Shown here: positions 1,434 through 16,471 of the stretch, piece after piece
How positions within the stretch are numbered: position 1 is the first letter of the stretch
How the letters are laid out: every line of letters starts with the position of its first letter
Virus record (IMG/VR): IMGVR_UViG_3300006862_000008
Location: 1 to 23,996 of that record
Length of the DNA: 23,996 bases
From: a virus
Strand: one strand, 5' to 3'
Program-made: the position numbers and the translations under genes
The notes under the pieces: model-generated
The model's input: only the letters and a program-made list of their open reading frames with translations
Database searches by the model: none
Told to the model about the DNA's origin: nothing

Positions 1434-1482
1434 TGTTGTATGAACAGTATTTATATCTTATTCTTTAGGATTGTTAAATCTA

Positions 1483-1809
1483 TTATTTTGGATATTTAGC
1501 TTTAACTGCTAAACAATCGTTAATGTATTTTTGTATTTGAGCATTATCACCTTTAACAACACCATCTAGGTATTCTTTAAAGTCAGGATATTCTTTTGCT
1601 CTATTTGCTTTAACTAGGTTTAGTCTTTCAATTTCATTGGCTTGTTCTTCAAAGGCATCTAGTTGTGCCATTGTAGGTTTAGGTATATCAAGATTCCATT
1701 CAGCTATGAATACTCCTTTACCATCTAAATTGTCTTGTAATAGTACATCTTTAGAAAAATTTACTTCCTTGTTTGTGTATAGTTTTATTTTAATATCTAT
1801 ATTTTTCAT
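1483..1809 (-). CDS. Tail fibre assembly chaperone-like protein (cassette 3)
   Basis: This is a 108-aa protein whose C-terminal half has the pattern of the small proteins that follow marine phage tail fibres: a charged helix (LDAFEEQANEIERLNLVKA), then EYPDFKEYLDGVVKGD and a final C-x-AVKAKYPK. It starts 3 nt after the stop of the fibre gene at 1813-2652, so the pair is probably translationally coupled. Related short proteins follow the other two fibre-tip genes (3301-3600 and 4232-4522), though this one has a different N-terminal half. The likely role is folding or attachment of the fibre tip just upstream. The family is XkdW/tail-fibre-chaperone-like by pattern, not by search. Confidence 0.65.
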   Translation of the reverse strand: MKNIDIKIKLYTNKEVNFSKDVLLQDNLDGKGVFIAEWNLDIPKPTMAQLDAFEEQANEIERLNLVKANRAKEYPDFKEYLDGVVKGDNAQIQKYINDCLAVKAKYPK

Positions 1810-1812
1810 AAT

Positions 1813-2652
1813 TTATGCTATTTTCCAACCTGTCCAAATGGCTTCTCCACCAATAGCACCATTATTGAATTCTCTACTAGAACCTAATGAAGTCCATTTT
1901 GCAAATATTTCTATATAATCAGTAGCAGCCAAGGTAACTTTATATGCTGTAGCCATATAACATTCACCATCAGCAGAACCTATAATTGATTTATAAACAT
2001 CTGTGTTTGATGATGCACTACCATTTTTATAATATGCTAAAAATGCTATATCTTGATCGCTATTTAATCTGAAAGAACAAAAACAATTAAAAAGATAAGT
2101 ACCAGCTTCACTTGCTGTAAATCTATAATTAGTAGTTGGATCAAATTCATTAAAATTATCTATTAATTGTTGATTCCAAGTTGTTTTGTAAAAAACATTT
2201 TGTGTTGTCAAGGTTGTTGTTGAAGTAGTTGCCGCCATAAATCTTAATTGTGCATTATCAGTTGAAATATTATTTGGTGTTACAAGTCCAAAAGTATTAT
2301 TACCTTTTAGTAAGGTTGTAGCATCTTTAGTTCCAGTAGCAGTTAGTTTAGCTAAAGATACAGTATTATCAGAAGGTGTACCTAAATTTAATACATCTCC
2401 TAATACTAAAATAAAATCTATTGTATCAGATGAAGTTAAAGCATCTGAGAATACGATTGTTGAACCTGATATTGTATAAGCTGAAGTTGGCGATTGAATA
2501 ACACCATTTAAAGATACGATGCAGTTGTTTGCAGATTGTGGGTAATAAGAAACTCCACCATTTAATAAATTGTATGTAGCTGTAGCAGATGTAGTAATTG
2601 TATCTAGCTTTACAAAGTTTCCTACAATGGGAGTACGTCCAATATATGACAA
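1813..2652 (-). CDS. Fibre-tip protein with C1q-like jelly-roll C-terminus (cassette 3), TTG start
   Basis: The protein is 279 aa. Residues 1-95 (YIGRTPIVGNF, then SLNGVIQSPTSAYTISGSTIVFSDA) form the beta-rich repeat used in marine phage fibres to join modules. Residues 150-279 (FTASEAGTYLFNCFCSF, FLAYYKNGSAS, KVTLAATDYIEIFAKW) resemble a C1q/TNF-type trimeric jelly roll, a common receptor-binding fold. The start appears to be TTG at 2652-2650, immediately after the TAG of the HNH gene. AGGAG (2663-2667) lies 10 nt upstream, inside the HNH coding sequence, which supports this unusual start. The chaperone-like gene follows 3 nt after its stop. Confidence 0.75.
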   Translation of the reverse strand: MSYIGRTPIVGNFVKLDTITTSATATYNLLNGGVSYYPQSANNCIVSLNGVIQSPTSAYTISGSTIVFSDALTSSDTIDFILVLGDVLNLGTPSDNTVSLAKLTATGTKDATTLLKGNNTFGLVTPNNISTDNAQLRFMAATTSTTTLTTQNVFYKTTWNQQLIDNFNEFDPTTNYRFTASEAGTYLFNCFCSFRLNSDQDIAFLAYYKNGSASSNTDVYKSIIGSADGECYMATAYKVTLAATDYIEIFAKWTSLGSSREFNNGAIGGEAIWTGWKIA

Positions 2653-3297
2653 CTATGCTACTCTCCTTTCCCAATATGCTTTTGTTTTTTGTGAATATAT
2701 ATTTTTTAATTCTTTAGTCATGTAAGACATATCTCTACCAAGTTTATATCCATTATTCAAATATTCTTGCTTTAATTCTTTTTGTATTCTTTTAGATTTA
2801 TTATCTTTATTAACCCAAATTGAATTAGAATATATTTCACTATATCTTTTTCTTTGCTTATCTGAATAAACTTGAAACTGTCTAGCATATTTAATCTTTG
2901 CTTTAGTTTCTGCTGAAAGTTTCTTTCCTCTCATTTTCATTTTTGTTTCTTCAGTATGTTTAAATCCTGTATGTAAAATACCATATTCAATTCTAAACTT
3001 TTGATACATTCTTGAATTAATTTTATAAAATCTTTGTGTGCTTTTTGGTTTTACATTCATATAAAGAAAACCTTTAATCATTTTAAATCTATATTTTTTA
3101 GTTACGCAGAATGGCAAAAGCATGTGAATTATGTAATGCTCTCTAGCTGTTAAAGCTACAAGGTTATCTTTATCATTTGAACCACCACAGCTTTTAGGAA
3201 TGATATGGTGAACTTCTTTATATCCTTCTAATGTTCTGTTCTTAGCTCTAGCAATTATCTTATCATGCCAAACTTTATATTTGTTTTCAATAAACAT
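2653..3297 (-). CDS. HNH homing endonuclease with NUMOD-type repeats
   Basis: The 214-aa protein has an N-terminal HNH core: EVHHIIPKSCGG (H30, H31), DNLVALT (N45) and REHYIIHMLL (H54, H58). A NUMOD3-like DNA-binding stretch follows at about 111-140 (GFKHTEETKMKMRG, KLSAETKAKIKYARQ). Near the C-terminus is a W-V-N...SKR...NNGYKLGR module (161-188) also seen in phage homing endonucleases. Such enzymes cut a specific site and are copied into it by repair. The gene starts 3 nt after chaperone 3301-3600 and ends directly against the TTG start of fibre 1813-2652, so it sits between two receptor-binding cassettes without disrupting either. Its last codons carry the ribosome-binding site of the next gene. 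Confidence 0.9.
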   Translation of the reverse strand: MFIENKYKVWHDKIIARAKNRTLEGYKEVHHIIPKSCGGSNDKDNLVALTAREHYIIHMLLPFCVTKKYRFKMIKGFLYMNVKPKSTQRFYKINSRMYQKFRIEYGILHTGFKHTEETKMKMRGKKLSAETKAKIKYARQFQVYSDKQRKRYSEIYSNSIWVNKDNKSKRIQKELKQEYLNNGYKLGRDMSYMTKELKNIYSQKTKAYWERRVA

Positions 3298-3300
3298 AAA

Positions 3301-3600
3301 TTATTTTGGATATTTCTGTTTAACTGCGTTGATGGCTTGTTGCCATTTATTAGTGCCATTAATCTTATCCCAATACTGCATATCAAGTTGCTCTTGTATT
3401 GAAGGATAGTCTTTGGCTCTATCTCTTTGGTATTTATTAGAATTATATTCTGTAATTAGTTCTTGTTGCTTAGCAAGTATTTCATTTGCAGGAATTGGTG
3501 TAGTTCCATTAAACCAAGTTATTTGATTTATATCTTCATCATTAACACTAACTTGTGCATTAGGATTAATTGCAAGTATTGATTTAATTATATCAGTCAT
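3301..3600 (-). CDS. Tail fibre assembly chaperone-like protein (cassette 2)
   Basis: The 99-aa protein has the pattern INPNAQVSVNDEDINQITW, then an AKQQEL helix, then RDRAKDYPSIQEQLDMQYWD and a final VKQKYPK. This is the XkdW-like/tail-assembly chaperone pattern that follows many phage fibre genes. It is clearly paralogous to 4232-4522: both have AQVSV..(D/E)DIN..IWxN/D, KQxEL, QLDxxY and end near YPK/NPK. It begins 1 nt after the stop of fibre 3602-4159. The likely role is chaperoning that fibre; function is inferred from family pattern and position. Confidence 0.7.
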   Translation of the reverse strand: MTDIIKSILAINPNAQVSVNDEDINQITWFNGTTPIPANEILAKQQELITEYNSNKYQRDRAKDYPSIQEQLDMQYWDKINGTNKWQQAINAVKQKYPK

Positions 3601-3601
3601 A

Positions 3602-4159
3602 TTAACCTTTTATTTCAATTAAAGTAATATTAGAAGCTGTTCTTGCTAAATTAGAACTATCACCATCATTTGTTGAACGATTAATAGCAAATGTAGTTGC
3701 TGAAATAATTCTTCCTTGAATTTTATATGTTGTGCTAGATGTTGTGCTTGGACTATCTAAAAATGATAAATGAGTACATCTTATTGTACCAGAAGTTCCT
3801 AAATTATACATATCACCACCTGAAGCTAAAGTTCTACTTCCAGCTGCAGCACCAACATTTATATCAGTAGAAGTTCTTACTAACTTAATATATGCTTGGT
3901 CTAAAGCACCACCATTTATTTCTACTAAAACTAAAATTTTATTACTAGTAGATGAAGGAGTAATTGAAGCTGACATTCCTGTTATATCTGTGTATGAAGT
4001 AGATGTTGTTGTAAATGTATCAGTCTTAGTTGTTGAAACAACTTGTAATACAGCACCAGCACCTAATTTGGTTGTTGCTATTGCAGCACTAGCATTAATA
4101 TCGGCATTAACTATTGTGCCATCAGTTATTCCTAGTGATTGTATTTTTGTTAGTGGCAT
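3602..4159 (-). CDS. Fibre-tip / receptor-binding protein (cassette 2)
   Basis: This is a 185-aa protein. The N-terminal stem (MPLTKIQSLGITDGTIVNA, then DINASAAIATTKL, residues 1-32) is shared almost word for word with fibre 4525-5094. The rest is a beta-sandwich of the type TSTSYTDITGMSASITPSS.SNKILVLVEI ... FLDSPSTTSSTTYKIQGRI ... INRSTNDGD ... ITLIEIKG, a tip domain very common in marine phages. The gene is followed after 1 nt by its chaperone-like partner. It probably sits on the tail and contacts the host surface; whether it binds protein or sugar is not visible. Confidence 0.75.
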   Translation of the reverse strand: MPLTKIQSLGITDGTIVNADINASAAIATTKLGAGAVLQVVSTTKTDTFTTTSTSYTDITGMSASITPSSTSNKILVLVEINGGALDQAYIKLVRTSTDINVGAAAGSRTLASGGDMYNLGTSGTIRCTHLSFLDSPSTTSSTTYKIQGRIISATTFAINRSTNDGDSSNLARTASNITLIEIKG

Positions 4160-4231
4160 GTCTAAATTCCTCTTATAGTTTTATTAACAGTCTTTACAAG
4201 GAATTTCAACATGAAGCATAAATGCAGCATA

Positions 4232-4522
4232 CTATTCCTTAGGATTGTTAAGTTTAATATTAGCTATTCTAGCTTTCCAGCTATCTAAACCATTATGATA
4301 AATCTCATCTAATTGAAATACAACAGTTCCATATTCTTTACGTCTATTTTCATAAACATCTTCTAATGATTGTAATTCAGATTGTTTATCTAGTATTTGT
4401 TGATTAGTAATGTTTGTTGGATTATTATCATGCCAAATTAATGTATTAATATCATCTCCTGATACTGAAACTTGTGCATCTTTTTTTATTGAAGTTATTG
4501 CAGTACAAATATTTATTTTCAT
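4232..4522 (-). CDS. Tail fibre assembly chaperone-like protein (cassette 1)
   Basis: This 96-aa protein is paralogous to 3301-3600. It has KKDAQVSVSGDDINTLIWHD, then ILDKQSELQSLEDVYENRRKE, then VVFQLDEIYHNGLDSWKARI and a terminal LNNPKE. The QLD-x-IYHNGLDSWK block is the most typical part of the XkdW-like family. It starts 2 nt after the stop of fibre 4525-5094. The gap to the next gene (4160-4231) is 72 nt, longer than elsewhere in the cluster, and contains distant inverted repeats (AAATTCC/GGAATTT) that may fold. Confidence 0.7.
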   Translation of the reverse strand: MKINICTAITSIKKDAQVSVSGDDINTLIWHDNNPTNITNQQILDKQSELQSLEDVYENRRKEYGTVVFQLDEIYHNGLDSWKARIANIKLNNPKE

Positions 4523-4524
4523 AA

Positions 4525-5094
4525 TTAACCTTTAATTTCCATTACTATTATTTGTGCTACACGATTAGTAGAACCCATATATCCAGTTCCACCAGAAACT
4601 CTCATATAGCATTGGTAAGTTATTGCAGAAGTTGTATTTGGTGAATCTAAATGACAATAAGATACAACACCATCTATTGCAGCATTAAAAGTATCAATAT
4701 ATCCTATTCCATTTGAACCACCTAAATTGGTTGAATCTTTAAAAATCGTATAAAAAACAACAGCAGAATTAGTATAACCATAATGAGTAGCAAATATTGC
4801 AAATTTACTAGAAGTTGCTGATGGAGTAATTGTTACTGATAATGTATTTGAAGCAGTAACAAAAGATGTTGATGTTGTACTTCTTTGTGTTGAATCGGTA
4901 GCACCTAAAACCTGAATAACTTGTCCAGCAGTAGCACCAACACCAGATAATTTTGTAGAAGCGATTGCGGCACTTGCATTTATATCTGCATTGACAATAG
5001 TACCATCTACAATCTTTGCAGATGTTATAATACCATCAGCTATATCCGCAGAAGTTAAAGGAACTTGTGCTGGTGTATTTCCTATAAAAGGCAT
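4525..5094 (-). CDS. Fibre-tip / receptor-binding protein (cassette 1)
   Basis: This is a 189-aa protein. Its stem (MPFIGNTPAQVPLTSADIAD, GIITSAKIVDGTIVNADINA, SAAIASTKL) shares DGTIVNADINASAAIA with fibre 3602-4159. The tip follows the same plan (TSTSFVTASNTLSVTITPSATSSKFAIFA ... LDSPNTTSAITYQCYMRV ... IIVMEIKG), but the sequence between the fixed framework motifs differs, as expected for two specificities on one scaffold. The DNA of the shared stem has diverged at third positions, so the duplication is not recent. It is followed after 2 nt by a chaperone-like gene. Confidence 0.75.
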   Translation of the reverse strand: MPFIGNTPAQVPLTSADIADGIITSAKIVDGTIVNADINASAAIASTKLSGVGATAGQVIQVLGATDSTQRSTTSTSFVTASNTLSVTITPSATSSKFAIFATHYGYTNSAVVFYTIFKDSTNLGGSNGIGYIDTFNAAIDGVVSYCHLDSPNTTSAITYQCYMRVSGGTGYMGSTNRVAQIIVMEIKG

Positions 5095-5103
5095 TGTTTA
5101 TTC

Positions 5104-5430
5104 CTATGTTGAAATATCGTCAACTGCACTAACAATTACATCTAAAGATGTAGCTGTGTCAGAAATTACTTTTAGTGCATCACCAGATTCAAGAACGAAT
5201 TTAGCACCACCATCAATAACTTGTAATGATGATCCTGCTGGAATTGGTGCATTTTTTACTATGTAATAATCTGCAGCACTTGATGTAATATATACTGAAG
5301 CATTAACAGCTGAAGCAGTTGTGTTAGCTATAGATATTCCTATAATTGTATCGTAACTATTTGCAGTTAATAATGTACTAGCAGAAGTTGTTACGTTTCT
5401 TGCTATGTATCTTCTAAAATTTTGTGCCAT
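5104..5430 (-). CDS. Small beta-rich virion protein, probably tail-associated
   Basis: The 108-aa protein (starts MAQNFRRYIARNVTT) has alternating small, hydrophobic and polar residues typical of a beta-sandwich: TIIGISIANTTASAVNASVYI, then a YYIVKNAPIPAGSSLQVIDG turn, then GDALKVISDTATSLDVIVS. It resembles small proteins found beside tail fibre genes in marine phages, probably decorating or connecting fibres. It lies between the main tail fibre and the first fibre-tip cassette, 9 nt before the latter. No catalytic motif is seen. Confidence 0.55.
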   Translation of the reverse strand: MAQNFRRYIARNVTTSASTLLTANSYDTIIGISIANTTASAVNASVYITSSAADYYIVKNAPIPAGSSLQVIDGGAKFVLESGDALKVISDTATSLDVIVSAVDDIST

Positions 5431-5491: not shown

Positions 5492-7024
5492 TTATAATGC
5501 AATAGAAACAGCTAAAGCAAAACCTTTTGTTGCAAAAGTGCTTGTATCAGTAGCCTCTACATTTAACCAAGCAGAACCTGTATAATATTTCAATACACTA
5601 GATGTTGTGTTAAAGTAAAGATCACCAGCATTTAAAGGATCACCATCATTATCTACTGAAGGATCATTTGCTTTAGCACCTAAATATGTATCATCAAAAC
5701 TATCTGTTGCGGCTAGAGCTGCATCTCTTGCACTGTTTGCCGCATTAGCTGCGTTACTAGCAGTGTTAGCAAAGTTACTAGAATTATTAGCAAAGTTACT
5801 TGAGTTAGCTGCATGGTTACTAGATGTATTAGCAAAGTTACTAGAATTAGCAGAATGATTAGATGAATTACTTGCATGATTGCTAGAAGCATTGGCAAAG
5901 TTTGAGCTGTTTGCCGCATGATTTGAACTGTTGTTTGCGAAGTTAGATGAATTGGCAGAATGATTACTAGAAGCATTTGCACTATTAGAACTATTGTTAG
6001 CAAAGTTGCTAGAATTTGATGCGTGGTTTGCTGATGTGTTAGCACTATTGCTAGAATTGTTTGCAAAATTACTTGAGTTACTAGAATGATTTGATGCTGA
6101 GTTTGCACTGTTACTAGAATTGTTTGCAAAGTTAGAAGCATTGCTAGCAGAATTTGCGGCAGCATTAGCATTAGCACTTACATCAGCTAAATAAGTTGAA
6201 GCTGTATTAGCAGAATTAGAAGCATTGTTTGCAAAATTACTAGAATTTGATGCATGATTAGCAGATGCGTTAGCAAAATTAGATGAGTTGTTAGAAAAAT
6301 TAGAACTGTTAGATGCAGAGTTCGCAGCTGCATTAGCTGAGTTTGTAGCAGATTGTGCATCAACAATTAAATCCCATTTAGCTACATCAGCATTAGAACT
6401 GATTGGAGTTGTACCTGTAGATGTGTGAGTTGTATTACAAAGATATACGTTATTGTTAGAACCATCTTTTACAATATCTCTGGCATTGTATGTAACTCCA
6501 GCACTCCATGAACCTCTGTTAGTTCCAAGCTCTTGTGTAACTGATAATTCGCCATTAGTATCAAATGCTAGAATTTTATTAGCACGATCTGTAGCACCTA
6601 CAGTAAACTCAGTAGATGTCATTGTATTTGTTTTAGATAATTTTAAAGATCTTGTTACTTCTTCTTGCAATTGTTGAATTGCCATTGTTGCTCTGTCTAA
6701 ACCTTCTTCATGAGATTCAGCAGGGAATGGATCGTTAGCGATATAATCTATTGATTGTGTTTGTGGAATGTTACGTCTTAATACAACTGTCTGAGTTGAT
6801 GTTGGAATATTACCAGCTGTGAATATAACTGATCCACCACCAGCGTTACCTGCACCTGTTACAGTATAGTGAGTTGTAATAGTCTTAGTTGTTTCAGTTC
6901 CATTAGCTGAACGTATAATTACTTGAATATCTGAGTCTTGGAATATCTTAAATGTATATGAAAACGTAGTTGTAGAATTATCACCTGCGTAACTATTCTT
7001 AACTGTAGTTGAAGATATTGTCAT
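5492..7024 (-). CDS. T7-like tail fibre with long heptad-repeat shaft
   Basis: The 510-aa protein has four parts. Residues 1-135 match the N-terminal attachment domain of T7 gp17-type fibres (NSYAGDNSTTTFSYTFKIFQ ... VVLRRNIPQTQSIDYIANDP ... HEEGLDRATMAIQQLQEE). Residues 170-218 resemble a carbohydrate-binding-module fold (GSWSAGVTYNARDIV ... VYLCNTTHTS ... WDLI). Residues 224-432 are a shaft of about 30 seven-residue repeats of type SSNFANN. The C-terminus (DDTYLGAKANDP ... GDLYFNTTSSVLKYYTGSAW) is a common marine phage fibre module. It sits directly after the ejection-protein genes, as gp17 does in T7. The protein should trimerise and tether to the nozzle; the separate tip proteins downstream may attach to it. 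Confidence 0.85.
   Translation of the reverse strand: MTISSTTVKNSYAGDNSTTTFSYTFKIFQDSDIQVIIRSANGTETTKTITTHYTVTGAGNAGGGSVIFTAGNIPTSTQTVVLRRNIPQTQSIDYIANDPFPAESHEEGLDRATMAIQQLQEEVTRSLKLSKTNTMTSTEFTVGATDRANKILAFDTNGELSVTQELGTNRGSWSAGVTYNARDIVKDGSNNNVYLCNTTHTSTGTTPISSNADVAKWDLIVDAQSATNSANAAANSASNSSNFSNNSSNFANASANHASNSSNFANNASNSANTASTYLADVSANANAAANSASNASNFANNSSNSANSASNHSSNSSNFANNSSNSANTSANHASNSSNFANNSSNSANASSNHSANSSNFANNSSNHAANSSNFANASSNHASNSSNHSANSSNFANTSSNHAANSSNFANNSSNFANTASNAANAANSARDAALAATDSFDDTYLGAKANDPSVDNDGDPLNAGDLYFNTTSSVLKYYTGSAWLNVEATDTSTFATKGFALAVSIAL
5729..6355 (-). repeat. 21-bp-period coding repeat (tail fibre shaft)
   Basis: This encodes residues 224-432 of the tail fibre. The protein period is 7 and units take forms such as SSNFANN, SSNHSAN, SANHASN and SSNSANT. 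Position 3 is nearly always Asn and position 5 Ala or Ser, with Phe, His or Ser at position 4. The DNA repeats are degenerate at third positions, so the array is selected as protein rather than freshly expanded. One interruption near residues 274-290 (ASTYLADVSANANAAA) breaks the pattern. Confidence 0.9.
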
Positions 7025-15928: not shown

Positions 15929-16471
15929 TTACCAACATATATTTTTATCTAATATTTTGTTGGATTTAGACATATTTATATTAGATTTAAGATACTGTAA
16001 ATTCCAATAAACATGTAATCCAGAAACATTTTTACCTTTTAATGGTATAATGTGATCAACATGATAGCCTTTTGGACAATTTTTATAAATTTCTTTTATT
16101 TTATTTATATTACTCCATTTTGGAGTGGCTTTTAATTTTAATGCTCTTCTATTTGCTGATCTAATTAAATTATATAATCTTCCATGTTCTGATTTAGACC
16201 ATTTTTTATAAGCATTTTTTACTACTATTTTTCCAATTTTACTTTTTCTATATTGTTCTCTAATTTTTTTTCCTTTTGTTTCATACCATTTTTTTGATCT
16301 TAATTTTGATTTTTCTGTTTTATTATATTTTTCTTGTCTTATTTTTAAAAGTATTTTTGATTTTGGTGAATTATAATATTTTTTGTTTCTACATTCTTTA
16401 GAACAAAATTTTTTTATATTATTATGAGTTGTATCTTTAAATTTATTATTACAAATGAAACAATTTTTCAT
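15929..16471 (-). CDS. HNH endonuclease with N-terminal zinc knuckle
   Basis: The 180-aa protein has Cys4-x2-Cys7 and Cys23-x3-Cys27 at the N-terminus (zinc ribbon), then a very Lys-rich linker. The HNH core is YHVDHIIPLKGKNVSGLH (D139, H140), followed by VYWNLQYL (N157) and N164/N166. It is a free-standing, probably mobile, nuclease. The gene is more AT-rich than its neighbours (long runs of ttttt/aaaa, heavy AAA/AAT codon use), consistent with a separate history. Its ATG shares one base with the stop of the 67-aa gene (TAATG). It lies at the head/tail junction, between the 67-aa gene and tail tubular A. Confidence 0.88.
   Translation of the reverse strand: MKNCFICNNKFKDTTHNNIKKFCSKECRNKKYYNSPKSKILLKIRQEKYNKTEKSKLRSKKWYETKGKKIREQYRKSKIGKIVVKNAYKKWSKSEHGRLYNLIRSANRRALKLKATPKWSNINKIKEIYKNCPKGYHVDHIIPLKGKNVSGLHVYWNLQYLKSNINMSKSNKILDKNICW

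Follow-up and report, generated by a model that had tools for sequence, protein, structure and literature searches.

A candidate array of phage fibre-tip and chaperone genes lies at positions 1483 to 5094 of the viral record IMGVR_UViG_3300006862_000008. The whole analysed stretch, 23,996 bases and probably a fragment, is called the window here. Homology and synteny of the structural genes place it among the HTVC010P-type pelagiphages, and all 20 of the 20 matching phage-collection records come from Pelagibacter phages, at about 75-78% identity. The family name Ubiqueviridae has been proposed for HTVC010P-type pelagiphages, whose tail-fibre region is described as hypervariable (PMC10504331; this and the other papers given by PMC number are cited from partial texts).

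All genes of the array are on the minus strand. Tip 1 (slot 1; 4525-5094, 189 amino acids, aa) is followed after 2 nucleotides (nt) by chaperone 1 (4232-4522, 96 aa), tip 2 (slot 2; 3602-4159, 185 aa) after 1 nt by chaperone 2 (3301-3600, 99 aa), and tip 3 (slot 3; 1813-2652, 279 aa, TTG start) after 3 nt by chaperone 3 (1483-1809, 108 aa). The six genes and three pairs given in a preliminary description of this DNA were thus confirmed. Its term "tandem" needs a qualification, because a HNH/NUMOD3 homing endonuclease gene (2653-3297, minus strand; PF01844, phrog_655) separates cassettes 2 and 3. This junction is empty in the relatives L028, L105 and L107 and occupied in L095, L212 and L363; the L-numbers are labels of the loci compared, L005 being HTVC010P and L504 P-SSP7. 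Chaperones 2 and 3 end in YPK and chaperone 1 in NNPKE, and all three match phrog_9114 (1e-27, 8e-14 and 1e-19, respectively). The array is preceded on the same strand by a conserved 108-aa protein (5104-5430), which was aligned with six isolates and is annotated as "virion structural" in relatives, and by the main tail fibre (5492-7024).

Tips 1 and 2 are members of a single family; the C-terminal part of tip 3 falls in another. The stem DGTIVNADINASAAIA (4960-5007 in tip 1, minus strand) is present in both tip 1, whose N-terminus reads MPFIGNTPAQVPLT, and tip 2, as described earlier. In tip 1 it matches residues 148-189 of the P-SCSP1u fibre (8i4m, E 4.5e-4). This is an internal fibre segment, so the separate tips resemble fibre ends that have become detached. 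The heads of tips 1 and 2 are referred to as class I. Tip 2 matches residues 496-658 of orf22 in PDB 9efk (8.6e-21), an 18-chain assembly, and the class I profile extends the match to residues 482-658 (6.7e-40), the C-terminus of orf22. The AlphaFold model of tip 2 has a predicted local distance difference test score of 86.9, mostly above 90 over residues 37-185 (3605-4051, minus strand), and forms a TNF-like jelly roll. Its best structural match is PLTL 9ib7 (Z 15.2, root-mean-square deviation 1.9 over 121 residues), and it is also near Pgp3 and BC2L-C (Z 14.4 for the latter). Tip 2 is accordingly predicted to be a TNF-like lectin-type head, and tip 1 probably is a TNF-like head too, by homology to tip 2.

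Tip 3 (phrog_18673, 1.3e-44) consists of a conserved N-terminal domain (residues 1-103; 2344-2652, minus strand), which is 83-90% identical in many loci where the rest is unalignable, and a putative C1q-like head (about residues 138-279; 1816-2241, minus strand, boundaries approximate). The profile of its family matches C1q chains, including the C1q-like protein 4qpy at 2.1e-6, and 9 of the 30 family members match PF00386. Tip 3 alone gave no significant C1q match, PF00386 included, so the C1q-like label of the preliminary description holds through the family profile only.

The main fibre starts with an N-terminus of T7 type, followed by NSSNFAN repeats and a short end domain in which no known head is recognisable. 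The T7 comparison is drawn in part from PMC3909814. When the main fibre and the 108-aa protein were scanned against Pfam and PHROG, no T4gp10-like docking domain was reported, although a diverged domain could escape such scans. The preliminary description had counted four candidate receptor-binding proteins. Its proposal that a short-tailed phage carries separate receptor-binding heads, each with a chaperone-like partner, is supported, but the main fibre lacks a recognisable head that could make it the fourth. For this reason, three heads on a headless fibre are no worse a fit than four receptor-binding proteins.

A total of 443 chaperone-family open reading frames (ORFs) were found in 421 loci that had been gathered by using the window's own proteins. 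For 416 of them, a tip ORF no shorter than 110 aa ends within 60 nt; the unique pairs number 321, and their gap lengths show peaks at -4, -1, 1 and 2 nt; the adjacency of tips and chaperones across the loci is more than chance. Comparison of the halves revealed several unrelated types of N-half, and C-halves that recur across them. In chaperone 3 the N-half is an XkdW domain (PF09636, 3.9e-14; 52.6 bits against a cut-off of 24.6) and the C-half is of the YPK type; chaperones 1 and 2 stay below the PF09636 cut-off. None of the three window chaperones exceeds the cut-off of the phage tail assembly chaperone model PF16778, which is matched by relatives that join an N-half of the chaperone 2 kind to another C-half (HTVC203P gp36, 4.2e-11; L082 likewise). 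All carriers of the PF16778-type C-half match (4/4 in one set; 3/3 in another, including the isolate HTVC203P), and KQSALNKLKALGL is another C-half type.

Chaperone 2 displays the boundary most clearly. Its C-half (3304-3462, minus strand) is common to unrelated N-halves: the DNA in L213 and L231 is 87-100% identical per bin over about 165 nt from the stop codon and then falls to 20-53%, and the N-halves of these two are unrelated to that of chaperone 2 (3463-3600, minus strand; client-class type "NGTTPI"). The structural model has a mixed alpha/beta N-half, with weak likeness to XkdW (2hg7, Z 3.1), and helices at residues 38-96. A fold search returned nothing below 0.001, and the folds of Mu Tfa and gp25 are not among the matches listed for the model. 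An Hsp70-like identity was rejected for chaperones 1 and 2, as the sole match in a PDB sequence search (E 0.047) was judged to be chance. The window chaperones are bipartite, with a variable, client-specific N-part and a conserved helical C-part.

The tip ends were then compared with the chaperones beside them. They were classed with a position matrix trained on profile-labelled tips, in which the chaperone was not used, and 28 of the 321 cassettes were dropped because the tip end was uncallable. Beside the 68 XkdW-type N-halves, 65 tip ends are of class II (C1q-type), three are uncallable and none is of class I. The 253 other N-halves accompany 218 class I ends and 10 called class II by the matrix, the remainder being uncallable, so that every class I call (218/218) carries a non-XkdW N-half. 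After removal of near-duplicates the counts are 206 class I and 10 class II for the other N-halves, and 0 and 61 for the XkdW type. In 30 loci with mixed cassettes, 61/61 match, compared with a mean of 30.5 and a maximum of 48 in 5000 shuffles of chaperones within loci.

The association persists under other ways of sampling. Selection by the C-half only yielded 605 matches, 47 of them without a tip ORF, and 424 cassettes after duplicates and short N-halves were removed. The adjusted mutual information between N-half and tip end in these is 0.634 at the loosest threshold (shuffled maximum 0.041) and 0.579 and 0.466 at two stricter ones; between C-type and tip end it is 0.227. Finer pairs are also visible: "WYGW...DDNGNKIP" N-halves go with FIRLGDT tip ends (23/23), "YALIVDNKVVQISYQ" with IWKVT (5/5) and "LVNGIKVDLT" with YGVK (60/65). 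For a held-out set the rule was fixed beforehand; 80 ORFs with an XkdW N-half were collected, including four loci that searching bacterial genomes with the XkdW alignment had yielded and that entered this set only. Once 51 old or duplicate ones and six without a tip ORF were set aside, 23/23 stand beside a C1q-type tip end. The cassettes listed from nine cultured phages agree with the rule, the exception being the C1q gene of HTVC010P. In that phage (L005 7877-8708) the C1q-type tip gene is annotated in two pieces, and a C1q-type end can be read in a different frame immediately before an XkdW-type chaperone.

The preliminary description had expected each chaperone to prefer its own neighbour. 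A strict preference exists for the head fold class and is carried by the N-half only; individual pairing is unsupported. One-to-one pairing of tip and chaperone was rejected, since homologues of chaperone 2 remain 77-92% identical while the bodies of their tips differ widely, with scores over the last 110 tip residues of 0.09-0.35 in nearly all rows among the matches listed. P-SSP7 has a single chaperone-family gene beside four small tips of class I (L504 2517-5237), as class-level recognition predicts. In the sequences compared, what the N-half follows is the fold class of the adjacent tip and not the individual tip sequence.

The three slots are kept in close relatives, where the starts MPFIGNxPAxVPLT, MPLTKIQSLGITDGT and M[SA]Y[IL]G..P..GNF mark slots 1, 2 and 3 and the heads and chaperones change inside them. 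A wider regular-expression count over 128 loci is less tidy: 57/128 first genes are of slot-1 type and 56 more have a related IG start, 28/128 second genes are of slot-2 type, and 32/123 third genes are of slot-3 type. After slot 3, close relatives also keep a 251-aa gene (678-1433 in the window; phrog_1574, weak glycosyltransferase match). Arrays of three to five recognised cassettes occur in other phages (L267, L272, L277).

Conserved DNA was found at the borders of the changing parts. L015 is 93.4% identical to the window through the 108-aa gene to the end of the tip 1 stem, and continues with a C1q head and an XkdW-type chaperone. The first 22 codons of tip 2 (4094-4159, minus strand) are conserved and form a candidate recombination handle: among seven relatives with different tip 2 bodies, their synonymous identity is 100% in six and 89% in one. 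In the same relatives the synonymous identity is 51-64% for the tip 2 body and 73-96% for the chaperone 2 C-half, and 57-63% for the flanking 108-aa gene in the six that hold it. The chaperone identity is partly a matter of choice, because these relatives were found through the chaperone; the stem identity is unselected. One end of the record IMGVR_UViG_3300027518_000018 (L207/L174) equals slot 1 of the window (100%), while its other end carries a different slot-1 allele that leads into the block from tip 2 to chaperone 3 at 99.6%. The alleles meet at the tip 2 start, and the record is either a natural recombinant or an assembly join. Chaperone 3 is followed by the out-of-frame remains of a different chaperone's 3' end (NNPKE; 1459-1487, minus strand), 86% like 4233-4261, which also point to a past exchange; such remnants follow 4 of 68 XkdW-type cassettes.

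Two features outside the array were observed in addition. The left contig end (1-451) folds back on itself with inverted arms 1-62/390-451 (85%) and 72-112/337-377 (80%), possibly an assembly artefact or inverted paralogues. A 180-aa ORF (15929-16471), inserted among head and tail genes, contains zinc-ribbon cysteines and HVDHIIPL, and is presumably HNH-like by its look.

We consider it likely that the array encodes three exchangeable receptor-binding heads with chaperones like Tfa or Pam3 gp25, reshuffled by recombination. The three heads would be made separately and belong to the TNF/C1q superfamily, two of the TNF-like lectin type and one C1q-like, presumably as trimers. Directly after each head, and apparently coupled to it in translation, would come a folding chaperone in two parts, acting in the manner of Mu Tfa or Pam3 gp25. 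The chaperone's N-half may recognise the head fold class, most probably through the last beta-strand of the head, and its C-half may be a helical module that joins three chains whatever the client. A slot-specific N-terminal stem would place each head on the tail. Head and chaperone N-half would move between phages as a unit, with recombination points in the near-identical stem DNA upstream and the common chaperone C-half downstream. Gene anatomy, class matching, the sharing of C-halves, the conservation of slots in close relatives and the conservation of border DNA are observed, and the head folds are supported by prediction and profile.

Several points weigh against it. That the N-half binds the head, that the C-half trimerises the chains and that the heads sit on the virion and bind receptors are steps that we infer. 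Because proteins of the window served to collect the loci, similar chaperones are favoured. Chaperones 1 and 2 match no chaperone model in Pfam, and the model of chaperone 2 has no strong structural match, the XkdW likeness being the best. The fold was modelled for tip 2 only, as a monomer. Ten class II calls stand beside non-XkdW N-halves, most of them showing other ends such as FIKLGET and GGCRLK. The four tips with one chaperone in P-SSP7 mean that strict one-to-one pairing is not general. Moreover, part of the class association is linkage, because the N-half and the head end are adjacent in the DNA.

This last point could be taken further, in that the class match would merely reflect neighbouring genes that travel together without functional pairing. 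The N-half is coded directly after the head, and the more distant C-halves do associate less. However, among 256 cassettes with a following gene, the association between N-half and own tip end is 0.620 and that across the equally close junction on the other side, between C-half and N-terminus of the next gene, is 0.200; between the start and end of the same tip it is 0.139. All of 1095 pairs with similar N-halves (>0.7) and dissimilar tip C-termini (<0.35) share the class (1095/1095), against a background of 0.618. The next tip after twelve XkdW-type chaperones is of class I in ten, class II in one and uncallable in one, whereas their own tip is of class II in 12/12. Given 0.620 against 0.200 and the 1095 concordant pairs, linkage contributes but alone is a poor explanation, and we regard it in that role as very unlikely. 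That the three heads are alternatives used singly through a reversible DNA switch is hardly credible. Shared stems and near-identical borders could allow switching by inversion or duplication, but no long inverted repeat of good identity was found within 1483-5094, and all three tip genes are intact and in one orientation. The "switchable" host range of the preliminary description survives in the sense that cassette exchange varies the heads between relatives; with no invertible element, a reversible switch is not indicated. The branched tail spikes also suggested there, and a display of all the tips on one virion, would be further assumptions. Promoter and terminator scans gave nothing above shuffles.

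Two further explanations assign the proteins another place on the virion. The small proteins may remain attached to the finished head, form part of the adhesin and contact the receptor themselves, as Mu Tfa stays on the virion and has been proposed to contact the receptor (PMC10579305, PMC9608196). We think this unlikely, since the conservation of the chaperones (77-92%) beside variable heads is the reverse of what a receptor-contacting surface would be expected to show, and Pam3 gp25 was undetected in virions according to the partial text of PMC9608196. The tips might instead decorate the capsid or the tail nozzle and so not define host range, for their stems could dock elsewhere on the virion. 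This is distinctly unlikely: the stem lies within the fibre of P-SCSP1u and, by eye, in gp17 of P-SSP7, the head family forms the C-terminus of the long protein in the 18-chain assembly, and the array follows the main fibre gene.

Beyond exchangeable heads with folding chaperones, a combinatorial chaperone code may operate in marine short-tailed phages, which we put forward tentatively as possible rather than probable. It would comprise some ten types of N-half, each of which reads the last strand in one class of head and is joined interchangeably to at least three effector C-halves. One recombination event could then bring a head of quite another fold into any of the three fixed tail slots, since the chaperone half that matches it would arrive with it between standard DNA borders. 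Modular chaperones (PMC9608196), shared fibre-chaperone modules (PMC10579305), podoviruses with multiple receptor-binding proteins (PMC6872550) and C1q and XkdW genes in islands (PMC3909814) are already in print. The head-class code was not found in the literature searched, with most subscription journals outside that search; this code and the three-slot exchange are the new part of the finding. The question of how a single family of tail-fibre chaperones can assist fibres that differ greatly has usually been approached with one or two pairs. The several hundred natural cassettes amount to a swap experiment, and indicate the chaperone N-half and the last strand of the head as the recognition pair. 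Hypothetical genes of an abundant marine phage group, here a small virus of the ocean's commonest bacteria, thereby gain names as head, chaperone and slot, and a concrete mechanism is offered for the hypervariable region of the group.

Known systems share parts of this arrangement. Metaviromic islands of HTVC010P relatives likewise contain C1q, XkdW and tail fibre assembly proteins in hypervariable regions, although in the partial text of PMC3909814 XkdW is listed as of unknown function and no head-chaperone link is drawn between the genes. P-SSP7 (gp17 followed by gp37, gp38, gp39, gp41 and gp40) resembles the window in having a T7-like fibre gene and then small class I tips with a chaperone-family gene, and differs in its four tips per chaperone and single head class. 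The anchor-branched phages K1-5, G7C, CBA120 and KP32 also carry several receptor-binding proteins, in which the N-terminal docking parts are conserved and the specificity domains swapped (PMC6872550). Theirs are enzymatic tailspikes with T4gp10-like docking domains, neither of which was seen in the window, and class-matched separate chaperones, a feature of the window, are undescribed for them in the partial text of that paper. In the Alteromonas phages A5 and V22, a fibre and its cognate chaperone are shared horizontally among distantly related phages, as appears to be the case here; unlike the window, each phage has one fibre-chaperone pair, with lectin-like heads of another kind (PMC10579305).

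The closest parallels are found among the chaperones themselves. The Tfa family of phage Mu consists of modular tail-fibre assembly chaperones (North 2019, as cited in PMC9608196), and the window chaperones, like those of the Tfa and gp25 type, are small genes directly downstream of a fibre or head gene; they are only about 100 aa long, and no sequence or structural match to Mu Tfa was obtained. In Pam3, gp25 embraces the TNF-like fibre gp24, a non-conserved N-domain binding the fibre and a conserved helical C-domain trimerising it (PMC9608196). The window shares with this pair the TNF-like head, the two-part chaperone and the adjacency of the genes. Unlike Pam3, a myophage with one fibre and one chaperone in the same partial account, it has three heads in slots and several N-half classes matched to head classes, with C-halves traded, and the chaperone 2 model gave no structural match to gp25 among those listed. 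The window cassettes fit the Pam3 gp24-gp25 plan and enlarge it to three heads of two classes.

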